Of a DNA stretch of 6,752 bases, positions 11 to 6,752 are shown one piece after another (within the stretch, counting starts at the first letter, position 1; the number at the start of each line of letters is the position of its first letter). The position numbers and the translations under genes were made by a program. This DNA is from Chloroflexota bacterium. GTDB taxonomy: Bacteria; Chloroflexota; Anaerolineae; Promineifilales; Promineifilaceae. The stretch spans positions 1 to 6,752 of the forward strand of contig QQUD01000071.1 of the NCBI GenBank assembly GCA_008501785.1. The letters are read 5' to 3'. The notes under the pieces were generated by a model, which was not told the DNA's origin, made no database searches, and worked only from the letters and a program-made list of their open reading frames with translations.

Positions 11-16
11 TACAAT
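11..16 (+). promoter_or_regulatory. possible -10 box upstream of the Lrp/AsnC gene
   Basis: TACAAT matches the TATAAT consensus at five of six bases and lies 40 bases before the start codon of the regulator gene. The matching -35 element would fall outside the left edge of the window, so the promoter cannot be confirmed. The leader 17-56 holds no clear ribosome binding site. Confidence 0.25.
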
Positions 17-56
17 GTGTTTCGTATCCTTAACTTCTAATTTGCGTGGTAATCAT

Positions 57-521
57 ATGGAAACACAGTTGGACGAACTGGATCGCGTCCTTTTGAACTT
101 TTTACAACAAGACGCTCGCATTTCAATGGCAGAATTGGCACGTCGTGTTGAATTGTCGCCACCTGGTTTGCAAAAACGATTACGTAAGCTAGAGGAGCAG
201 GGAATCATTGACAAATATGCCACGCTCGTGGATCATGAAGCTGTTGGGTATGACATGTTGTGCCTGGTACAGGTGTCATTGCAGCGACATGAACCAGGTG
301 CAGTGCAAGATTTTGACAATGCGATTCAAAACATGCCTGAAGTGTTGGAATGTTATCACATCACAGGTGAGTACGATTATCATCTCAAGGTTGTGATTCG
401 CAATCGGAAGCATTTAAAACGTTTCATTGTGGAAATGCTGACACCCATCACCGGCATGGATAAAGTGCGAACGAGTTTGGTGTTGAGTCGGATGAAATCG
501 ACAACGGCCGTTCCTCTTTAA
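57..521 (+). CDS. Lrp/AsnC family transcriptional regulator
   Basis: The 154-residue product has the size and two-part layout of Lrp/AsnC regulators, which are DNA-binding proteins that usually assemble as dimers to octamers and respond to amino acids or related small molecules. Residues 5-50 form the winged helix-turn-helix (LDELDRVLL, then ISMAELARRVELSPPGLQKR and the wing start EQGIIDKY). Residues 66-150 are the RAM ligand-binding and oligomerisation domain, with the typical GEYDYHLKV at 104-112 and the family-like C-terminal tail TSLVLSRMKSTTAVPL. I chose ATG 57 because the DELDRVLL helix begins a few residues later, as is usual; the frame is open back to ATG 15, but those 14 residues do not look like family sequence. 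No clear Shine-Dalgarno sequence is seen. The ligand and targets cannot be read from sequence. The flavin reductase gene downstream is a possible target, but 273 bases separate them. The last codons contain a copy of the ACGGCCGT palindrome. Confidence 0.9.
   Translation: METQLDELDRVLLNFLQQDARISMAELARRVELSPPGLQKRLRKLEEQGIIDKYATLVDHEAVGYDMLCLVQVSLQRHEPGAVQDFDNAIQNMPEVLECYHITGEYDYHLKVVIRNRKHLKRFIVEMLTPITGMDKVRTSLVLSRMKSTTAVPL
504..511. repeat. ACGGCCGT palindrome, copy 1
   Basis: This copy extends to the 10-base palindrome AACGGCCGTT (503-512). It lies in the last codons of the regulator gene and encodes Thr150-Ala151-Val152. The tail of Lrp-family proteins often reads similarly, so this copy fits the protein. 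Confidence 0.85.
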
Positions 522-655
522 CTGAACTTTTCTATAAACAAACTATTTTTTACCAATGTGATGCGCTTAAGTGGCCAAAACTCCTTATCTGACACCTTTT
601 GATGGTCGCTCTTCTTGAACCCACGAATCACTAGTCACAAAAGTGCATTGAAATT

Positions 656-681
656 GGTCAGGTATGCATTTTACCTGAACC
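656..681. repeat. inverted repeat, possible operator or hairpin
   Basis: CAGGTA (659-664) pairs exactly with TACCTG (672-677), and the flanking GGT (656-658) can pair with ACC (679-681) across one extra A, giving a nine-pair imperfect dyad with a seven-base centre that includes ATGCAT. The length and symmetry would suit a dimeric regulator, possibly the Lrp-type protein upstream, but nothing in the sequence proves binding. Confidence 0.4.
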
Positions 682-692
682 GCGCAATTGTG

Positions 693-733
693 GGCGTCTT
701 GGATGAAATGATCCCACGTTTCTCCAAGACGTC
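693..733. repeat. 9-bp perfect inverted repeat upstream of flavin reductase
   Basis: CGTCTTGGA (695-703) is the exact reverse complement of TCCAAGACG (723-731), with a 19-base loop. A G-T pair and then a G-C pair (694/732 and 693/733) extend the stem. It ends 61 bases before the flavin reductase ATG, so it could be a leader hairpin or a protein-binding dyad. There is no following T-run, so it is not an ordinary intrinsic terminator. Confidence 0.45.
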
Positions 734-794
734 TCACATACTACTTTCACCCTCTTTCTCTAGCTCTAGCTCAAATCTCCAAACAGGAATACCC

Positions 795-1427
795 ATGTTG
801 ATAACCCCTAACTCCCTCAATAATAAGGATCGCTACAAATTTATGATTGGCGCGATTGTGCCCCGCCCAATTGCATGGGTAAGCACAATCAGTGCCGATG
901 GCAAGCTAAATTTGGCACCATTTTCTTACTTTACAGCCGTTTGTCCCGACCCGATGACTTTGCTGTTTTGCCCTGGCTGGTCGGCCATGCGCAACCGCAA
1001 TAAAGATACGCAAATAAACATCGAACAAACCGGTGAATTTGTGATCAACATCACCAACGAAGCAACCAAAGAGGCGATGAATTTGACCGCTACTGAATTC
1101 GATGCAGATGTCGATGAGTTCGAATGGGCTGGCGTTACGCCAGCTCCCAGCAAAACGATTCAAGTGCCCCGCGTTGCCGAAGCGCCACTCTCGTTTGAGT
1201 GCAAGTTGCAGCAGATGGTGGTGGTGAAGGAAGGGGTGGGTGGGGGAACGGCCGTTTTCGGTGAAGTGCAAGCCATCCATGTGCGCGACGACATTTACGA
1301 GAATGGGTACATCTTGCCCGAAAAGTTGCAGCCAATCGGCCGTTTAGCTGGCTCAACCTATGCACACATCAATGATTTGTTTGAAATGCATCGTGTACCT
1401 CCACCAGAAAATCCACAAAAAAAGTAA
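795..1427 (+). CDS. flavin reductase-like (FMN-binding split-barrel) protein
   Basis: The 210-residue product looks like the flavin reductase-like family of FMN-binding split-barrel proteins (the DIM6/NTAB group), cytoplasmic flavoproteins that bind FMN and often pass electrons from NAD(P)H or supply reduced flavin to partner oxygenases. The visible signatures come in the usual order: PRPIAWVST at 23-31, NLAPFSYF at 39-46, DTQINI at 71-76 and EFVIN at 81-85 (the flavin-binding half), then GRLAGSTYA at 182-190 near the C-terminus. The length is normal for the family. ATG 795 is preferred because AGGA (785-788) sits six bases ahead and because the family sequence begins just after it; the in-frame TTG at 615 would add 60 unrelated residues. 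Substrate and partner are unknown, and no oxygenase gene is in view. It carries one perfect ACGGCCGT copy (1248-1255) and one near-copy (1336-1343). Confidence 0.85.
   Translation: MLITPNSLNNKDRYKFMIGAIVPRPIAWVSTISADGKLNLAPFSYFTAVCPDPMTLLFCPGWSAMRNRNKDTQINIEQTGEFVINITNEATKEAMNLTATEFDADVDEFEWAGVTPAPSKTIQVPRVAEAPLSFECKLQQMVVVKEGVGGGTAVFGEVQAIHVRDDIYENGYILPEKLQPIGRLAGSTYAHINDLFEMHRVPPPENPQKK
1248..1255. repeat. ACGGCCGT palindrome, copy 2
   Basis: This copy extends to AACGGCCGTT (1247-1256), encodes Thr152-Ala153-Val154 of the flavin reductase-like protein, and directly follows a run of G-rich sequence (1233-1246). A one-mismatch relative, TCGGCCGT, lies at 1336-1343 in the same gene. Confidence 0.85.
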
Positions 1428-1499
1428 GGGTCTTCATCAATTGTAAAATGTTAGTTTATTGTTTTCATCATTGCATCGGAGATCATGCACTCAATGGGA

Positions 1500-1528
1500 T
1501 TGTTCTTCATTAGTGCTTCCGCTAAACT
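1500..1528 (+). promoter_or_regulatory. weak candidate promoter for the pentapeptide gene
   Basis: TTGTTC (1500-1505) and TAAACT (1523-1528) are spaced by 17 bases and partly match the -35 and -10 consensus. Transcription would begin only a few bases before ATG 1538, giving an almost leaderless message, which agrees with the absence of a Shine-Dalgarno sequence there. The match is weak and could be chance. Confidence 0.25.
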
Positions 1529-1537
1529 TATGGTTCT

Positions 1538-2128
1538 ATGAACCAATTAACACGTGAAATCATTGTTACCAAAATCAGTGAAGGGGAAAAACGATTTTCG
1601 AACAGCAATCTGGCTGGACTCGATCTCAGTTTTCTTGATTTATCCCAATTACAGTTACGCTGTTCTTCGTTAGTGGGAGCCGATCTGAGCGGTAGCTTGC
1701 TAGTTTCTTCAAACTTGGACAGTGTTGATTTGAGTGGGGCATCTTTGGTGTTGGCAAATGGGCGTGGGGCAAACTTTCGGGCGGCAAATTTGAGTATGGT
1801 AAACGGCCGTTTAGCCAACCTCAGCCTCACTTTTCTGTCAGGGTCTGATTTAACCGGCATCGATTTAACAGGTGGCACGTTAGCTGGCGGAAATTTATCT
1901 TATGTCACGTTCATAAAAGCCAATATGGTCGGTGTTGAACTATCCGGTGCTGATTTGAATCATGCTAATATGCAGCAAGCCAATTTGTTGGGAGCCAATT
2001 TACAATCTGCAAATCTGCGCAATGCAAATTTGCAGGGAGCCAATCGGCGTGGTGTTGATTTGTCTGAAGCCAATCTCACCAATAAAAAACAGCTATCATC
2101 TTCATATCATCATATCAATAAGCGATGA
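1538..2128 (+). CDS. pentapeptide-repeat protein
   Basis: The 196-residue product is almost entirely tandem pentapeptides of the A(D/N)Lxx type, which fold as a right-handed square beta-helix. From residue 25 to 180 every fifth residue is a core hydrophobic residue (Leu, Phe or Met), about 32 repeats, with only three exceptions: Gly75, Gly90 and Arg170, each in an Asn-x-Arg triplet. A 20-residue cap precedes the solenoid (LTREIIVTKISEGEKRF), and a short polar tail rich in Ser, His and Lys follows. No signal peptide or membrane helix is seen, so it is probably cytoplasmic. Known relatives act as scaffolds or, in the Qnr/MfpA group, mimic DNA to protect gyrase; nothing here ties this protein to that role. 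ATG 1538 is the first possible start, because an in-frame TAA lies at 1523-1525. The 79-base gap to the next gene leaves co-transcription possible. Confidence 0.9.
   Translation: MNQLTREIIVTKISEGEKRFSNSNLAGLDLSFLDLSQLQLRCSSLVGADLSGSLLVSSNLDSVDLSGASLVLANGRGANFRAANLSMVNGRLANLSLTFLSGSDLTGIDLTGGTLAGGNLSYVTFIKANMVGVELSGADLNHANMQQANLLGANLQSANLRNANLQGANRRGVDLSEANLTNKKQLSSSYHHINKR
1803..1810. repeat. ACGGCCGT palindrome, copy 3 (14-bp form)
   Basis: This is the longest copy, a perfect 14-base palindrome TAAACGGCCGTTTA (1800-1813). It is read in another frame than copies 1 and 2 and encodes Asn89-Gly90-Arg91, placing Gly where the pentapeptide register expects a core hydrophobic residue. Confidence 0.85.
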
Positions 2129-2149
2129 ATGTCACTACTTCCTGACATT
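2128..2149 (+). terminator. small hairpin at the end of the pentapeptide gene
   Basis: AATGTCA (2128-2134) and TGACATT (2143-2149) form a perfect seven-base stem with an eight-base loop, starting on the last base of the stop codon. The stem is AT-rich and only a broken T-rich stretch follows, so at best it is a weak terminator or an mRNA-end hairpin. It could instead be a binding dyad in the leader of the next gene. Confidence 0.3.
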
Positions 2150-2207
2150 TGATTATGTTAAACTTCGCTTAGTGTTTTTGCATCAAAGAAAATCTGTCAA
2201 TTGAATT

Positions 2208-3869
2208 ATGAATACTCACCCAAACCGCCTGGAAATTAAAAACTTTTTAGTTAAGTATTTCTCCATCGAAGAATTAAAAAGCCTTTTATTTGATTTAGGT
2301 CTAGATTATCAAATAATTGTTGCACCTGATAGCCGCATAGAAATAATTGCAAGGGAAATTATCTTATACTTTGAACGGCACAGGGACATCTCAAGTCTTG
2401 GAGCGTATCTAAAAGAAAAAAGACCCAATTCTAAAGATACATTAGACAATATATTTGGAAAAGATTTTATTCTTCCATCCGAAGAACCTCGTGTATTTGA
2501 GTGGACACCTCCTAAACGAATACTTGAAGAAACATCACCTCATAAAAATATTCCTAATAAAACCCCTCAAAAAATACTTAATTCTGATAACATTCAACCC
2601 TTGCAAGTTAAGTCTGCACCTTCGCAAGTTGAACAAGTTGTAGATGCAACATCTTCTGTTGAACGAGACACAGATACAACACCTTTTGTTCAAGTCAAAG
2701 AGGCAACACCTCCAGTTGAGCAAGTTGTAGATACAACACCCTCTGCACAAGTCACAGAGGCAACACCTTCTGCTGAACAAGTTGCAGATGAGACATCTCC
2801 TGTTGAACATATCACAATCCAAACATCTCCACCGGAACCGTCACCAACAGAACAACTTCCATCTAATGATGGTAATTTTTTCAGCCATTTACCAAATAAA
2901 AAGGTGTTAGGGGTAGGTGGACTCATAATCATAGCGATTCTCGTTGTAGTAGGAATTGCAATAGCACAAAATATATCATCAGGGCTTTCCGCTGCGAACC
3001 TGACTGCAACTAGTCAGGCACAGAACCTCATCAGCACAGAGACAGCTTTTCAAGAACAAGGAACAGAAACAGCACAAAGTGGTCTGGAAGATTCAACGCC
3101 TGAACCAAACCAACCAGATCAAGGCGCGGATAAGCCGCCAGAACCTGAATCTACTGATTCAGAGGAACCTTTAGTGGATGAAACGGTCGCTCCACCAACC
3201 CTTATAAACACTGAACCGCCTCCAGCCGATACTTCTACACCAACTCCTCAACCTGACACTATTCGGTTAAGAACAAATACACAGGATGTAGATGTATATT
3301 ATGGTCCCAGCACAGAAAATCTTAGAGCTGCAATTTTGAAATATCAACAAGTAGTACAAGCCATTGGCAAAGTGCGAGGCAGCTCGTTTTATGAGGTGCT
3401 GCTTGACAATGGCATCACAGGATGGGTTGAAAGTGATAAGGTTGATTTTGTCGCTGGCTCAGATGAAGATGTACCGCAGACCTGGCCTAGAACGAGTACA
3501 GTTTCAAATGGCGGAACCGGTGAAACACCAGTTGTATCTGGTTGTTCACTGAGAGTTTGGGCAAAAGATAACCAGGTAAATGATGTGTTTATTCGGTGGG
3601 ATGATTTGCCTTCAGATACACGATGGCTATATTTGAAAGTGCAAGGGAGTTTAAACGGCCGTAATACCAACCTCATCGAACCGAACACCATCGATGCCAA
3701 TGATGTGGACACACGAGAAAATGGATTCATGTTAGGAAGCTGGCGGTTTGATCCCGACGATCCTAATTCAAAAGGCTTCCCTGAAAATACCCAATTCACA
3801 TTCACGCTAGAAGCCCAAGATGAGAACCGCAACGGTATTTGTTCAAAAAGCGGCACATTCACTCAGTAA
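2208..3869 (+). CDS. membrane protein: death-like domain, TM helix, SH3b domain
   Basis: The 553-residue product has at least five parts. Residues 1-75 resemble the small helical effector-associated or bacterial death-like domains that act as adaptor modules in bacterial conflict and signalling proteins (pattern F-x3-EL-x2-L-x-FDLGLDY, then AREIILYFERH and KRP). Residues 76-230 are a polar linker with imperfect 9-10-residue repeats. Residues 233-254 are a hydrophobic helix preceded by Lys231-Lys232, predicting N-terminus inside and C-terminus outside. Residues 255-350 are a Thr/Gln/Pro/Glu-rich stalk. Residues 351-415 resemble an SH3b domain (LRTNTQDVDVYYGPS, then FYEVLLDNGITGWVESDKV), a fold that often binds cell-wall material. 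Residues 445-553 look beta-rich and contain Cys446 and Cys545, a possible disulfide. No catalytic domain is seen, so a sensor or wall-anchored adaptor is my inference. No Shine-Dalgarno is visible; ATG 2208 is chosen because the death-like helix starts directly after it. The first part is markedly AT-rich. Confidence 0.8.
   Translation: MNTHPNRLEIKNFLVKYFSIEELKSLLFDLGLDYQIIVAPDSRIEIIAREIILYFERHRDISSLGAYLKEKRPNSKDTLDNIFGKDFILPSEEPRVFEWTPPKRILEETSPHKNIPNKTPQKILNSDNIQPLQVKSAPSQVEQVVDATSSVERDTDTTPFVQVKEATPPVEQVVDTTPSAQVTEATPSAEQVADETSPVEHITIQTSPPEPSPTEQLPSNDGNFFSHLPNKKVLGVGGLIIIAILVVVGIAIAQNISSGLSAANLTATSQAQNLISTETAFQEQGTETAQSGLEDSTPEPNQPDQGADKPPEPESTDSEEPLVDETVAPPTLINTEPPPADTSTPTPQPDTIRLRTNTQDVDVYYGPSTENLRAAILKYQQVVQAIGKVRGSSFYEVLLDNGITGWVESDKVDFVAGSDEDVPQTWPRTSTVSNGGTGETPVVSGCSLRVWAKDNQVNDVFIRWDDLPSDTRWLYLKVQGSLNGRNTNLIEPNTIDANDVDTRENGFMLGSWRFDPDDPNSKGFPENTQFTFTLEAQDENRNGICSKSGTFTQ
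2628..2831 (+). repeat. imperfect 9-10-residue repeats in the cytoplasmic linker
   Basis: Residues 141-208 of the membrane protein hold about seven degenerate units, including VEQVVDATSS, VERDTDTTPF, VQVKEATPP, VEQVVDTTPS and AQVTEATPS. The DNA repeats as well (for example GTTGAACAAGTTGTAGAT at 2628-2645 and a close copy at 2715-2732). Such linkers vary in length by slippage and probably act as a flexible spacer between the death-like domain and the membrane. Confidence 0.75.
3655..3662. repeat. ACGGCCGT palindrome, copy 4
   Basis: This 8-base copy (flanked as AAACGGCCGTAA) lies in the C-terminal beta-rich domain of the membrane protein and encodes Asn483-Gly484-Arg485, the same frame as copy 3. 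The surrounding residues (SLNGRNTN) look like a surface turn. Confidence 0.85.
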
Positions 3870-3881
3870 ATTTAGACAGAT

Positions 3882-3916
3882 AGAGGCAGGATCATCATCC
3901 TGCCTCTCATTTTGTT
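3882..3916 (+). terminator. rho-independent terminator
   Basis: AGAGGCAGGAT (3882-3892) pairs perfectly with ATCCTGCCTCT (3897-3907) around a four-base loop, and the T-rich stretch TTTTGTT follows at 3910-3916. It starts 13 bases after the stop codon of the membrane protein gene and separates it from the aconitase gene. Confidence 0.88.
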
Positions 3917-3963
3917 GGTATGGTAAATTGGGAACTAATGAGTGTATCTATTGGTCGATGAAA

Positions 3964-3971
3964 ACGGCCGT
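3964..3971. repeat. ACGGCCGT palindrome, copy 5 (intergenic)
   Basis: This is the only copy outside a gene. It extends to the 12-base palindrome AAACGGCCGTTT (3962-3973), whose right end reaches the expected -35 position of the aconitase promoter. Confidence 0.85.
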
Positions 3972-3998
3972 TTCCCCCTCCACCTTTTCCGCTATAAT
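3971..3998 (+). promoter_or_regulatory. probable sigma-70-type promoter of the aconitase gene
   Basis: A perfect TATAAT (3993-3998) lies 70 bases before the aconitase start, just after a terminator, which is where a promoter is expected. The -35 is poor: TTTCCC (3971-3976) at 16-base spacing is the best I see, so an activator or an alternative sigma factor may be involved. The predicted leader of about 60 bases has only a weak five-pair stem (4023-4027 with 4042-4046) and no riboswitch that I recognise. Confidence 0.6.
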
Positions 3999-4053
3999 AC
4001 CCTCCTAGACAGGTGACATCTTATCGTCATCGACCTCAACAACGATTTCAAAA

Positions 4054-4059
4054 AAGGGG
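4054..4059 (+). promoter_or_regulatory. ribosome binding site of the aconitase gene
   Basis: AAGGGG resembles the Shine-Dalgarno consensus AAGGAGG and ends eight bases before ATG 4068, which supports that start. It is the clearest ribosome binding site in the window. Confidence 0.65.
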
Positions 4060-4067
4060 TAACTACC

Positions 4068-6752
4068 ATGAGCAACTCATCTGATCAGTTTGGTGCCAAG
4101 GCAACACTGCCGGGAACCGACTACACTTATTATCGGCTCGATGCATTGGCCAACATCGCCAATATTGACCAGCTGCCATTTTCCATCAAAATTTTGCTGG
4201 AAGCATTGCTGCGCAACTGCGACGATTATGTGATTACACCAGCAGATGTCGAAAATCTGGCCAAATATAATGCCAAAGCACCCGTCAAAAACGAACTACC
4301 GTTCAAACCGGGCCGCGTCATTTTGCAGGATTTTACCGGGGTGCCAGCCGTTGTCGATCTGGCCGCTTTACGCTCCGCAATGGCTCGTCTTGGTGGCGAT
4401 CCAAAGAAAATCAATCCACAAGTCCCGGTTGATTTGGTAATTGACCATTCTGTCCAGGTTGATGCCTTTGGATCGGCAGCAGCGTTGTTTATCAACGTCG
4501 AAAAAGAGTTTGTACGGAATCGTGAGCGTTACGAATTCCTGAAATGGGGACAAAAAGCATTTGAAAACTTCACTGTTGTCCCGCCAGCGACTGGTATTGT
4601 GCATCAAGTCAACCTCGAATACCTGGGTAAAGTGGTCATGAGCAAGACTGATGGGGTGGGGGAGACGGTTGTTTTTCCTGACAGCCTGGTTGGAACCGAC
4701 TCGCATACCACCATGATTGACGGCCTCGGCGTTTTAGCTTGGGGTGTCGGTGGCATTGAAGCAGAAGCCGTCATGCTTGGCCAGCCAATTTACATGCTCA
4801 CGCCAGAAGTGATTGGCGTAAAACTCACTGGTAAAATGCCGGAGGGAACCACGGCAACGGATCTTGTGCTGCTTGTGACGCAACTGCTGCGTGAAAAGGG
4901 CGTTGTCGGTAAGTTTGTCGAATTCTTTGGTCCTGGCTTGAGCAACATGACATTGGCTGACCGGGCCACGATTGCCAACATGTGCCCTGAATATGGCGCA
5001 ACGGTTGGCTTCTTCCCGGTTGACGACGAAACATTGAACTACATGCGAAACACAGGGCGTCCTGATGAATTGGTAGATTTGGTCGAAAAATACACGAAGG
5101 CGCAAGGACTATTTCGCAGCGATGGCATGCCCGACCCAGAATTCACCGATGTGGTTGAACTAGATTTGGGCACGGTACTACCCAGTCTGGCCGGACCCAA
5201 ACGACCACAAGACCGCATTTTGTTGTCAGACATGAAGAAGCAATATCGCAAAACGCTGTTGGCACCAGTGGGACCGCAAGGGATTGGGTTGCAGGAAGAG
5301 GCGTTGGAGAAAACGGCCGTTATCAAAAATGGCACAGACACTGAAATTGGACACGGCGCAGTTGTCATTGCCGCCATCACCAGCTGTACCAATACATCCA
5401 ACCCCTATGTCATGATTGGGTCTGGTCTGGTCGCCAAAAAAGCAGTGGAAGCCGGTTTGAAAGTAAAACCATACGTCAAAACCAGTCTAGCTCCCGGTTC
5501 ACGTGTGGTAGAAGATTACTTGAAAAAAGCAAACTTATTGCCTTATATGGAAGAACTTGGCTTCCACATTGTCGGGTTTGGCTGCACGACTTGCATTGGC
5601 AACTCTGGTCCATTGCCAGAACCAGTTGCTAACGCCATTCAAGAAAACGATTTGGTTACATCGGCTGTCCTCAGCGGGAATCGCAACTTCGAAGGGCGCG
5701 TTAGCCCGCTAACTCAAACCAATTACCTGGCCTCACCGCCGTTAGTTGTCGCTTATGCATTGGCCGGAACGACTGATATTGACCTGATAAATGATCCCAT
5801 TGGCACAGGGAAAGATGGACAGCCCGTCTATTTGAAAGATATTTGGCCCACCAGCCAGGAAGTTGCAGATACTGTGGCCGCAGCGGTTACGGCCGAAATG
5901 TTCCGTGAGCAATATGGCAATGTTTATGAAGGGAGCGACGAATGGAACGAGATTCCAGTCAGCGGTGGCGAAATATTTGATTGGCAAGAAGATTCTACCT
6001 ACATTCAAGAACCACCATTTTTTGTTGATCTAACCCCAAAAGTGATGCCCATTGCTAATATTAACAATGCCAATGTGCTGGTAAAAGTTGGAGATTCGAT
6101 TACAACAGACCACATTTCACCCGCAGGCGCTATTTCACGAACAAGTCCAACGGCAAAATATCTGATGGATCGAGACGTGCAGCCACAATACTTCAATTCT
6201 TATGGCTCACGTCGAGGCAATGACCAGGTGATGACACGCGGCACCTTTGCCAATGTGCGTTTGCGCAACCAAATGGCTCCCGGCACTGAAGGCGGCTGGA
6301 CCACATATTTGCCAACTGGTGAAGTGATGACGATGTATGATGCTTCACTGAAGTACAAGGAAGATGGTACATCACTCGTTATTTTGTCTGGCAAAGATTA
6401 TGGGATGGGCAGCTCTCGTGATTGGGCCGCCAAAGGGACGCTGCTTTTAGGGGCAAAAATGGTCATCGCTGAAAGTTACGAACGCATCCATCGCAGTAAT
6501 TTGGTGGGCATGGGTGTGCTGCCGCTTGAGTATAAGGTGGGCGAAACGGCCGTAACTCTTGGCCTCGATGGCACCGAATCCTTCAGTACGCTCAATCTAA
6601 CGGATGATTTGAAACCTGGACAGACTATCACCGTCAAAGCCGTTCAAGCAGACGGCACAGAAATAGTTTTTGAAACAACTTGTCGTGTGGATACGCCTGT
6701 GGAAGTAGATTACTATCGCAACGGCGGCATTTTGCACACCGTTCTCCGCAAT
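4068..6752 (+). CDS. acnA: aconitate hydratase A (aconitase), 3'-partial
   Basis: This gene encodes the TCA-cycle enzyme that interconverts citrate and isocitrate through cis-aconitate, using a [4Fe-4S] cluster in the cytoplasm. The frame is open for 895 codons up to the window edge and ends in [14 protein letters not shown]; relatives are about 890-910 residues long and end soon after this motif, so only a few residues are missing. Family landmarks are all present: DHSVQVD at 126-132, [13 protein letters not shown] at about 209-221, the cluster ligands Cys440 (in SCTNTSNP), Cys506 and Cys509 (in [10 protein letters not shown]), [13 protein letters not shown] from 675, and the swivel-domain active-site segment [10 protein letters not shown] from 781. 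No frameshift or missing catalytic residue was found. It belongs to the AcnA/IRP-type branch rather than AcnB, judged by domain order and length. It has its own promoter and ribosome binding site. Two ACGGCCGT copies fall in loops that vary in the family. Confidence 0.97.
5313..5320. repeat. ACGGCCGT palindrome, copy 6
   Basis: This copy extends to AACGGCCGTT (5312-5321) and encodes Thr416-Ala417-Val418 of aconitase, about 20 residues before the first cluster cysteine, in a stretch that differs between aconitases. A one-mismatch relative, ACGGCCGA, lies at 5889-5896. Confidence 0.85.
6546..6553. repeat. ACGGCCGT palindrome, copy 7
   Basis: This 8-base copy (flanked as AAACGGCCGTAA) encodes Thr827-Ala828-Val829 in the C-terminal swivel domain of aconitase, just after the conserved [10 protein letters not shown] segment, in a variable loop. 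Confidence 0.85.

Follow-up and report, generated by a model that had tools for sequence, protein, structure and literature searches.

ACGGCCGT, a genome-wide highly iterated palindrome with dialects in an order of Chloroflexota

Does the octameric palindrome ACGGCCGT, found in seven perfect copies in a 6,752-nucleotide stretch of contig QQUD01000071.1 from a Chloroflexota bacterium (the window, meaning here the whole of that stretch), belong to the highly iterated palindromes (HIPs), and what might keep it in place? In the relatives of the window, whose genomes (not the window's own) are those counted here, the excess of the word is real, genome-wide and maintained, and ACGGCCGT is a genome-wide HIP of one Chloroflexota order in the class Anaerolineae. 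The palindrome HIP1 has gone unexplained in cyanobacteria for decades, and a second case is now present in Chloroflexota.

The seven copies begin at positions 504, 1248, 1803, 3655, 3964, 5313 and 6546, exactly where the original prediction had placed them. About 0.06 copies are expected from 200 dinucleotide shuffles, none of which reached seven, and 0.07 from base composition alone, in keeping with the figure of about 0.1 first proposed; the GC content, put at about 47% at that time, is slightly lower when measured (45.6%). A maximal-order Markov model built from the window's own 7-mers expects 7.1 copies, a figure that is uninformative because ACGGCCGT itself supplies most of its own sub-words. 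All seven copies are preceded by A, five form the decamer AACGGCCGTT, and the longest palindrome, TAAACGGCCGTTTA at 1800-1813, has 14 bases, each as described before. Six copies lie within five open reading frames (ORFs) and one, at 3964, lies between 3869 and 4068, so that all five genes and one intergenic region carry the word, again as predicted. As read from the sequence, the copies are:

504..511, copy 1, in AACGGCCGTT, within the Lrp/AsnC-type regulator gene
1248..1255, copy 2, in AACGGCCGTT, within the flavin reductase-like gene
1803..1810, copy 3, centre of the 14-base palindrome TAAACGGCCGTTTA, within the pentapeptide-repeat gene
3655..3662, copy 4, within the EAD7/SH3 protein gene
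3964..3971, copy 5, in AACGGCCGTT, between genes, upstream of the aconitase gene
5313..5320, copy 6, in AACGGCCGTT, within the aconitase gene
6546..6553, copy 7, within the aconitase gene

The aconitase of the window served as the query for finding relatives and led to 37 loci: seven, at 77-83% identity, are in Chloroflexota assemblies, and the other 30 hold 0-1 copy of ACGGCCGT each. The names of protein matches include Candidatus Promineifilaceae, Candidatus Leptofilum and Ardenticatenaceae. Seven related genomes carry between 6,316 and 15,176 copies of ACGGCCGT (G001 14,867; G002 13,708; G003 6,316; G005 15,176; G006 12,866; G007 10,726; G008 15,031), against 64-255 copies in the same seven genomes of a control, the word read backwards; a more distant genome, G004, has 75. 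The density in G001 is about 1,930 per Mb (14,867 in 7.7 Mb), which is 45 times the second-order Markov expectation in a 100-kb sample and 84 times that of base composition in 123 kb. More than 1,000 copies are present in 31 of the 56 genomes of the order to which G001 belongs. In the rest of the class, represented by the 361 genomes outside those 56 in an even draw of 396, no genome exceeds 430, in a count that used the ACGGCCGT pattern and was blind to other HIP words. The observed-to-expected ratio (O/E) by composition is 54-156 in 26 of 29 ACGGCCGT-type samples and lower in G003 (32), G031 (26, from 3 kb) and G015 (19), giving about 19-156 times base composition for the genomes that use the word. 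The original prediction had named a genome-wide count near expectation as the sign of a mere chance cluster; the relatives hold thousands per genome, and both the reading as a HIP and the parallel with HIP1 were borne out.

These figures also bear on the simplest alternatives, namely that the window contains a chance cluster, an effect of codon usage or a family of repeats. A window so small could by itself harbour such a cluster, but chance does not provide for thousands of copies per genome beside a rare reversed control. Codon usage is at odds with sites in all three codon phases and between genes, and with the synonymous alternatives that relatives use for the same peptide; a repeat family is at odds with flanks that differ between sites and lineages. 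In the G001 sample there are 2.12 sites per kb of coding sequence and 1.63 per kb of non-coding sequence, with all three phases used, and in none of five genomes sampled is the density higher outside genes, that of coding sequence being the higher in four besides G001. Counts, phases and flanks rule out all three alternatives for the relatives, and their probability is practically nil.

The genes of the window, all on the forward strand, are:

15..521, forward strand, Lrp/AsnC family regulator (copy 1); ORF, PF01037, E 3.4e-22
795..1427, forward strand, flavin reductase-like protein (copy 2); ORF, PF01613, E 1.1e-27; the start at 795 was chosen within a longer ORF, 615-1427
1538..2128, forward strand, pentapeptide-repeat protein (copy 3); ORF, PF00805, E 3.9e-30
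2208..3869, forward strand, EAD7/SH3 protein (copy 4); weak matches, below Pfam cut-offs, to effector-associated domain 7 and a bacterial SH3 domain
4068..6752, forward strand, aconitate hydratase (copies 6 and 7), its 3' end past the window; ORF and profile match

The protein at 2208-3869 begins with its weak effector-associated domain 7 match, is rich in Thr and Pro over a long middle part and also matches SH3 weakly; it might be part of a signalling or conflict system. A separate observation concerns a 100-kb stretch of G001 (L138-L142), where several palindromic hexamers are nearly absent (ACGCGT 0, GAGCTC 0, TTTAAA 0, GGGCCC 1, CCCGGG 1, GGATCC 1).

Maintenance of the word is seen in alignments around the aconitase gene, in which HIP octamers were compared with control octamers of the same bases and two CpG. 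Among G001, G002, G005, G007 and G008, HIP octamers are identical in 462 of 488 cases (95%) and controls in 559 of 1,377 (41%); among G006, G029 and G030 the values are 175 of 197 (89%) and 206 of 672 (31%). The corresponding ratios of loss rate, HIPs to matched words, are 0.061 in the G001 group and 0.100 in the G006 group. At a larger distance (75-76% identity, against G009) 22 of 29 and 16 of 23 HIPs are retained, as are 26 of 95 and 22 of 71 controls, and between G032 and G033 24 of 26 HIPs are kept and 74 of 116 controls. Conserved comparisons comprise 441 of 480 coding and 16 of 19 non-coding sites. Where the amino acid is unchanged, codons are identical in 94-100% of cases inside HIPs and in 38-74% outside. 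As an example, 23 of 24 ACGGCCGT-type genomes encode the rpoB peptide YGRI with ACGGCCGT, versus 3 of 23 others, and relatives write the same peptide with synonymous alternatives. Over rpoB and aconitase columns with at least 3 sites, chosen on the ACGGCCGT-type group and hence favouring it, the word occupies 117 of 127 ACGGCCGT-type rows able to carry it versus 6 of 75 others, leaving out G049 (1/2) and the window (2/2). Copy 6 of the window corresponds to alignment column 1257, where 18 other genomes of the 43 aligned also have ACGGCCGT, and copy 7 to column 2502, where ACGGCCGT is found in 5 others and TCGGCCGA in 2.

A purely mutational origin, in which biased mutation or repair error creates the word and no force keeps it, agrees with sites in every codon phase and between genes. 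It predicts ordinary or even faster loss, however, and the loss observed is 6-10% of that of controls, with codons so often identical inside sites; such an origin is therefore very improbable. Of the roles first proposed for the palindrome, pure mutational bias is thus disfavoured by the strong conservation, and a chromosome-wide binding, repair or organising signal is a possible role.

Excess and conservation can be joined in a model with a fixation bias S, in which the word is in excess by a factor of e^S and sites are lost at S/(e^S-1) times the neutral rate. For G001, where the O/E is 45 (Markov) to 84 (composition), S = ln(O/E) comes to 3.8-4.4, with a predicted loss of 0.087-0.053 of neutral, the observed value in its group being 0.061; for G006, an O/E of 45-67 predicts 0.087-0.064, the observed value in its group being 0.100. 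Observation and prediction thus agree within a factor of two. The implied gain (O/E times loss ratio) is about 3-7 times neutral, and a lowered mutation rate (a cold spot) is therefore no explanation on its own. A single directional force, whether selection or biased repair, can account for both excess and conservation at a scaled strength of about 4, which is the figure that any mechanism must yield and which disfavours mutation-only explanations.

The form of the word gives a hint of how it might be recognized. In ACGGCCGT genomes, one-letter departures within the core occur at 0.2-1.6 of expectation, and outer half-sites are graded, TCGGCCGT being present at 4.2-4.8 times expectation, GCGGCCGT at 1.8-3.0 and CCGGCCGT at 0.6-1.3; this outer one-off excess, up to 4.8 times, holds for the ACGGCCGT and TCGGCCGA samples. 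Judging from these sequence counts, the core is strict and the outer pair graded, as would be expected of a site read by a dimeric DNA-binding protein.

The word is not the same throughout the order. The leading palindromic octamer of each genome, computed from stretches of 3-126 kb per genome, defines several dialects, namely ACGGCCGT, TCGGCCGA, GCGGCCGC, TGCCGGCA, the decamer AACGGCCGTT and a nearly bare CGGCCG, and most of these words are built on the core CGGCCG. The GC content is 75% for ACGGCCGT, TCGGCCGA and TGCCGGCA and 100% for GCGGCCGC. ACGGCCGT leads in 29 genomes, including G031, which gave a tie in its 3-kb sample and was assigned by its 6,888 genome-wide copies; the leading word is TCGGCCGA in G010 and G028 (76-78 times composition), GCGGCCGC in G045 (77 times composition) and TGCCGGCA in G023 (26 times the Markov expectation). 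G023 avoids CGGCCG (0.1 of expectation) and has GGCC at about 0.36 (stretches L153-L157, L200); this depletion, in a genome whose HIP is TGCCGGCA, suggests that the old core is subject to restriction. The share of sites that lie in the decamer AACGGCCGTT is 94% in G013, 83% in G012, 32% in G006 and 3% in G001, in which C is the commonest base preceding the octamer; the window, with five of seven copies in AACGGCCGTT, resembles the G013/G012 type.

When the octamer is masked, the O/E of CGGCCG is 1.0 in G001 and 1.2 in G006, 2.8-2.9 in G014, G016 and G043, and 5.9 in G049, and the hexamer is 3.4-7.4 times over-represented in G011, G049, G050-G053 and G055. The CGGCCG-rich genomes G011, G050-G053 and G055 have a mild outer preference at most (CCGGCCGG in G051, G052 and G055, from small counts); G049 is an exception, with a CGGCCG excess and yet ACGGCCGT retained. 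An aconitase tree built from 43 genomes together with the window unites G010, G028, G011, G049, G051 and G053 with support of 100/100; under midpoint rooting this group falls among ACGGCCGT genomes, the deep forks being weak.

Dialects among relatives and a drive-like strength are also what might be expected if the palindrome were a tag of self-recognition that raises DNA uptake or transfer and is spread by recombination. In line with this, four contigs of a viral collection (L290, L327, L278 and L286) have 3.0-3.7 ACGGCCGT per kb among the matches listed, above the sampled host chromosomes, but they were picked for closely spaced pairs, a selection that biases density upward. Moreover, uptake sequences, according to the available text of PMC1939737, are non-palindromic and more frequent in non-coding DNA than expected, while the density of sites in coding DNA is not lower here. 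An uptake or transfer drive is thus improbable. With regard to their content, L290 encodes ParA-like, DNA repair (RadC-like), FtsK-like and transglycosylase proteins, and L327 encodes ParB-like and PAPS reductase-like proteins.

A further alternative follows the proposal of Elhai for HIP1, by which an orphan methyltransferase would mark CGGCCG and mismatch repair would retain the allele that bears the mark, the build-up of sites being a by-product. The anatomy of the word is that of HIP1, for which a matching methyltransferase is the rule in cyanobacteria in the text available from PMC4390886. The rule given there for the outer bases, that G precedes the methylated C, fails to predict A-T, T-A and G-C outer pairs on one core.

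Methyltransferases were surveyed in the 56 genomes of the order, 32 counted as octamer genomes and 24 as others, with G023 and its TGCCGGCA counted as octamer-negative; absence is weak evidence in this survey, as rpoB itself is missing in 5 of the 56 and partial in 3, including G042. No tested family is universal in HIP genomes and no enzyme in these was shown to read CGGCCG. C5 methyltransferases (PF00145) occur in 26 of 56 genomes and 18 of 32 octamer genomes; their role as universal writer was rejected, as they are undetected in 30 of 56, including the HIP-rich G001, G005, G009 and G032. Vsr, present in 8 of 56 and 6 of 32, has no link to the motif and was likewise rejected. The absence of C5 enzymes from 14 of the 32 octamer genomes and of Vsr from 26 speaks against methylation-directed repair. 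PF02384 was detected in 48 of 56 genomes and rejected as universal writer in view of the HIP-rich G012, G014 and G042, in which it is undetected.

Strong D12 enzymes are present in 36 of 56 genomes, in several diverged groups (L108-L137). All 30 extracted from these 36 have the Dam-type motif R.N..G.FN.P.G, which we take to denote GATC recognition, all seven tested match TIGR00571 above cut-off, and the nearest solved structure to the enzyme of G001 is the adenine methylase of the DpnII system. On the basis of motif and TIGR00571 matches these enzymes should therefore read GATC, which is not part of the word, and they were rejected as its readers, a further point against methylation-directed repair. 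Dam-type enzymes are nevertheless commoner in octamer genomes (27 of 32 versus 9 of 24, p 0.0005), which favours the proposal to some extent, as HIP1-bearing cyanobacteria also carry a GATC enzyme (PMC4390886, available text); in four independent pairs, too few to test, the enzyme and the octamer change the same way 0.7 times on average versus 0.1 the other way.

PF01555 occurs in 52 of 56 genomes, in several HIP-rich ones by weak matches only, and these weak matches led to M, an orphan DUF1156-like DNA methyltransferase of about 660 residues, whose copy in G001 is at G001:C10:161120-163093 (L248). M matches in 45 of 56 genomes and was counted in 43 after weak matches in G023 and G054 had been dropped; it is partial or split in G007, G012, G015, G017, G020, G021, G025, G026, G028, G029, G031, G041 and G055. 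The search for an orphan methyltransferase suggested with the original prediction thus yielded an orphan enzyme, though not one linked to CGGCCG specificity. M was counted in 29 of the 32 octamer genomes and in 14 of the 24 others (Fisher p 0.009; 29 of 33 versus 14 of 23 if G023 is counted positive). It goes the same way as the octamer 1.8 times on average in four independent pairs and 0 times the other way, again too few to test, and is missing from G023, which avoids CGGCCG and uses TGCCGGCA; these points favour methylation-directed repair. On the other side, M is undetected in the HIP-rich G042, G043 and G049 and is whole in octamer-free genomes, being present in G034-G041 and others that lack the octamer. 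Few of its residues separate octamer from non-octamer groups, no residue set follows the dialects, and its pairwise identity tracks that of rpoB (Spearman 0.60, 29 genomes). In G042, a broken assembly with 6,919 sites, only the Dam-type enzyme is above cut-off among four methyltransferase families and M. The sequence evidence thus makes M a weak candidate for the writer. Dam-type enzyme and M are both commoner in octamer genomes, and neither explains the word; the word may be a methylation target, which this survey does not establish, and maintenance by methylation-directed repair is possible but unlikely.

The best explanation, to which about an even chance may be given, is that a dimeric, sequence-specific reader and a directional force maintain the HIP, with drift between dialects. 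Such a DNA-binding reader would be strict on CGGCCG and have a preference for one or two outer pairs; sites that are read would slightly favour their cells, or biased repair would restore broken sites, with a directional force of population-scaled strength of about 4 on each site as the result. Drift of the outer-pair preference of the reader would then carry the genome to a new dialect. The role of the reader might be chromosome maintenance, whether repair, segregation or nucleoid organisation, and we infer that the reader may be a protein other than a DNA methyltransferase. A broader form of this idea, tentative and on the doubtful side, is a methylation-independent chromosome-wide code, in which a dimeric reader, through weak selection or biased repair, imposes a palindrome of 8-10 bases on sites numbering in the thousands and a change in its specificity rewrites the genome into dialects inside a single order. 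The several dialects and the relatives without the word provide a comparative test, namely which gene changes along with the dialect.

Several points weigh against maintenance by a dimeric reader. No reader protein was found among the methyltransferase families tested in the 56 genomes, and weak selection acting singly on some 15,000 sites is demanding. Selection and biased repair give the same signature in data on excess and conservation, and the conservation values come from ordered, non-independent pairs of aligned pieces around the aconitase gene only. G017, G018 and G056 have no such palindrome excess and G024 only a weak one of TGCCGGCA (886 copies, O/E 4), and the recognition profile described above is missing from the GCGGCCGC and TGCCGGCA samples, which are smaller. 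Spacing between sites is near random (Kolmogorov-Smirnov p 0.07-0.57) and conservation hardly varies with distance to the next site (188/206, 406/434 and 43/45), so that no spacing-based function is visible.

How does the palindrome compare with known systems? Chi sites are GC-rich octamers over-represented genome-wide, as is the word described here, but they are non-palindromic and oriented, while the present word is symmetric and occurs at a much higher density. Dcm/Vsr very short patch repair, with its over-represented sites, illustrates enrichment of a short word through biased repair, a likeness limited by the presence of Vsr in 8 of 56 genomes only. The DNA uptake sequences of Neisseriaceae and Pasteurellaceae form dialects among relatives, and share with the present word the many copies and the signature of drive; here, on the other hand, the word is palindromic and not sparser in genes, and so lies outside that class.

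HIP1 of cyanobacteria, reportedly treated by Robinson in 1995, with selection on it said to be the subject of Xu, Lawrence and Durand in 2018, is the closest parallel, as first proposed, and most descriptive features of its class are found here. Searches of open-access literature, from which most subscription papers are missing, gave no report of such a motif from Chloroflexota and none that treats these words as HIPs, and the available text of PMC12772301, on methylation motifs in sludge bacteria, contains no word starting GGCC. In the text available from Elhai 2015 (PMC4390886), HIP1 (GCGATCGC) reaches about 1,000-2,500 per Mb in most cyanobacterial genomes, with a range for the class of 300-2,700 per Mb and an O/E of 55-228, and deviates most at its ends; Calothrix PCC 7103, with little HIP1 and GATC strongly depleted, parallels G023, which has no CGGCCG-type HIP and is depleted in CGGCCG and GGCC. 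The two systems have in common a GC-rich (here at least 75%) octameric palindrome of similar density and O/E in genes and between them, a core hexamer that falls to about expectation after removal of the octamer (G001, G006), deviations that pool at the outer positions (ACGGCCGT and TCGGCCGA samples), palindromic extensions in some lineages, outer-pair variants (TCGATCGA in cyanobacteria) and sporadic replacement by other palindromes. They differ in phylum and in core, CGGCCG rather than CGATCG, and the word of these Chloroflexota is thus not HIP1 proper; the link to a methyltransferase that is the chief clue in cyanobacteria is not established for this order, in which one outer-pair variant takes the place of another altogether and some genomes have a nearly bare hexamer. 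The HIP class thus extends to a second phylum, as a variant with another core.

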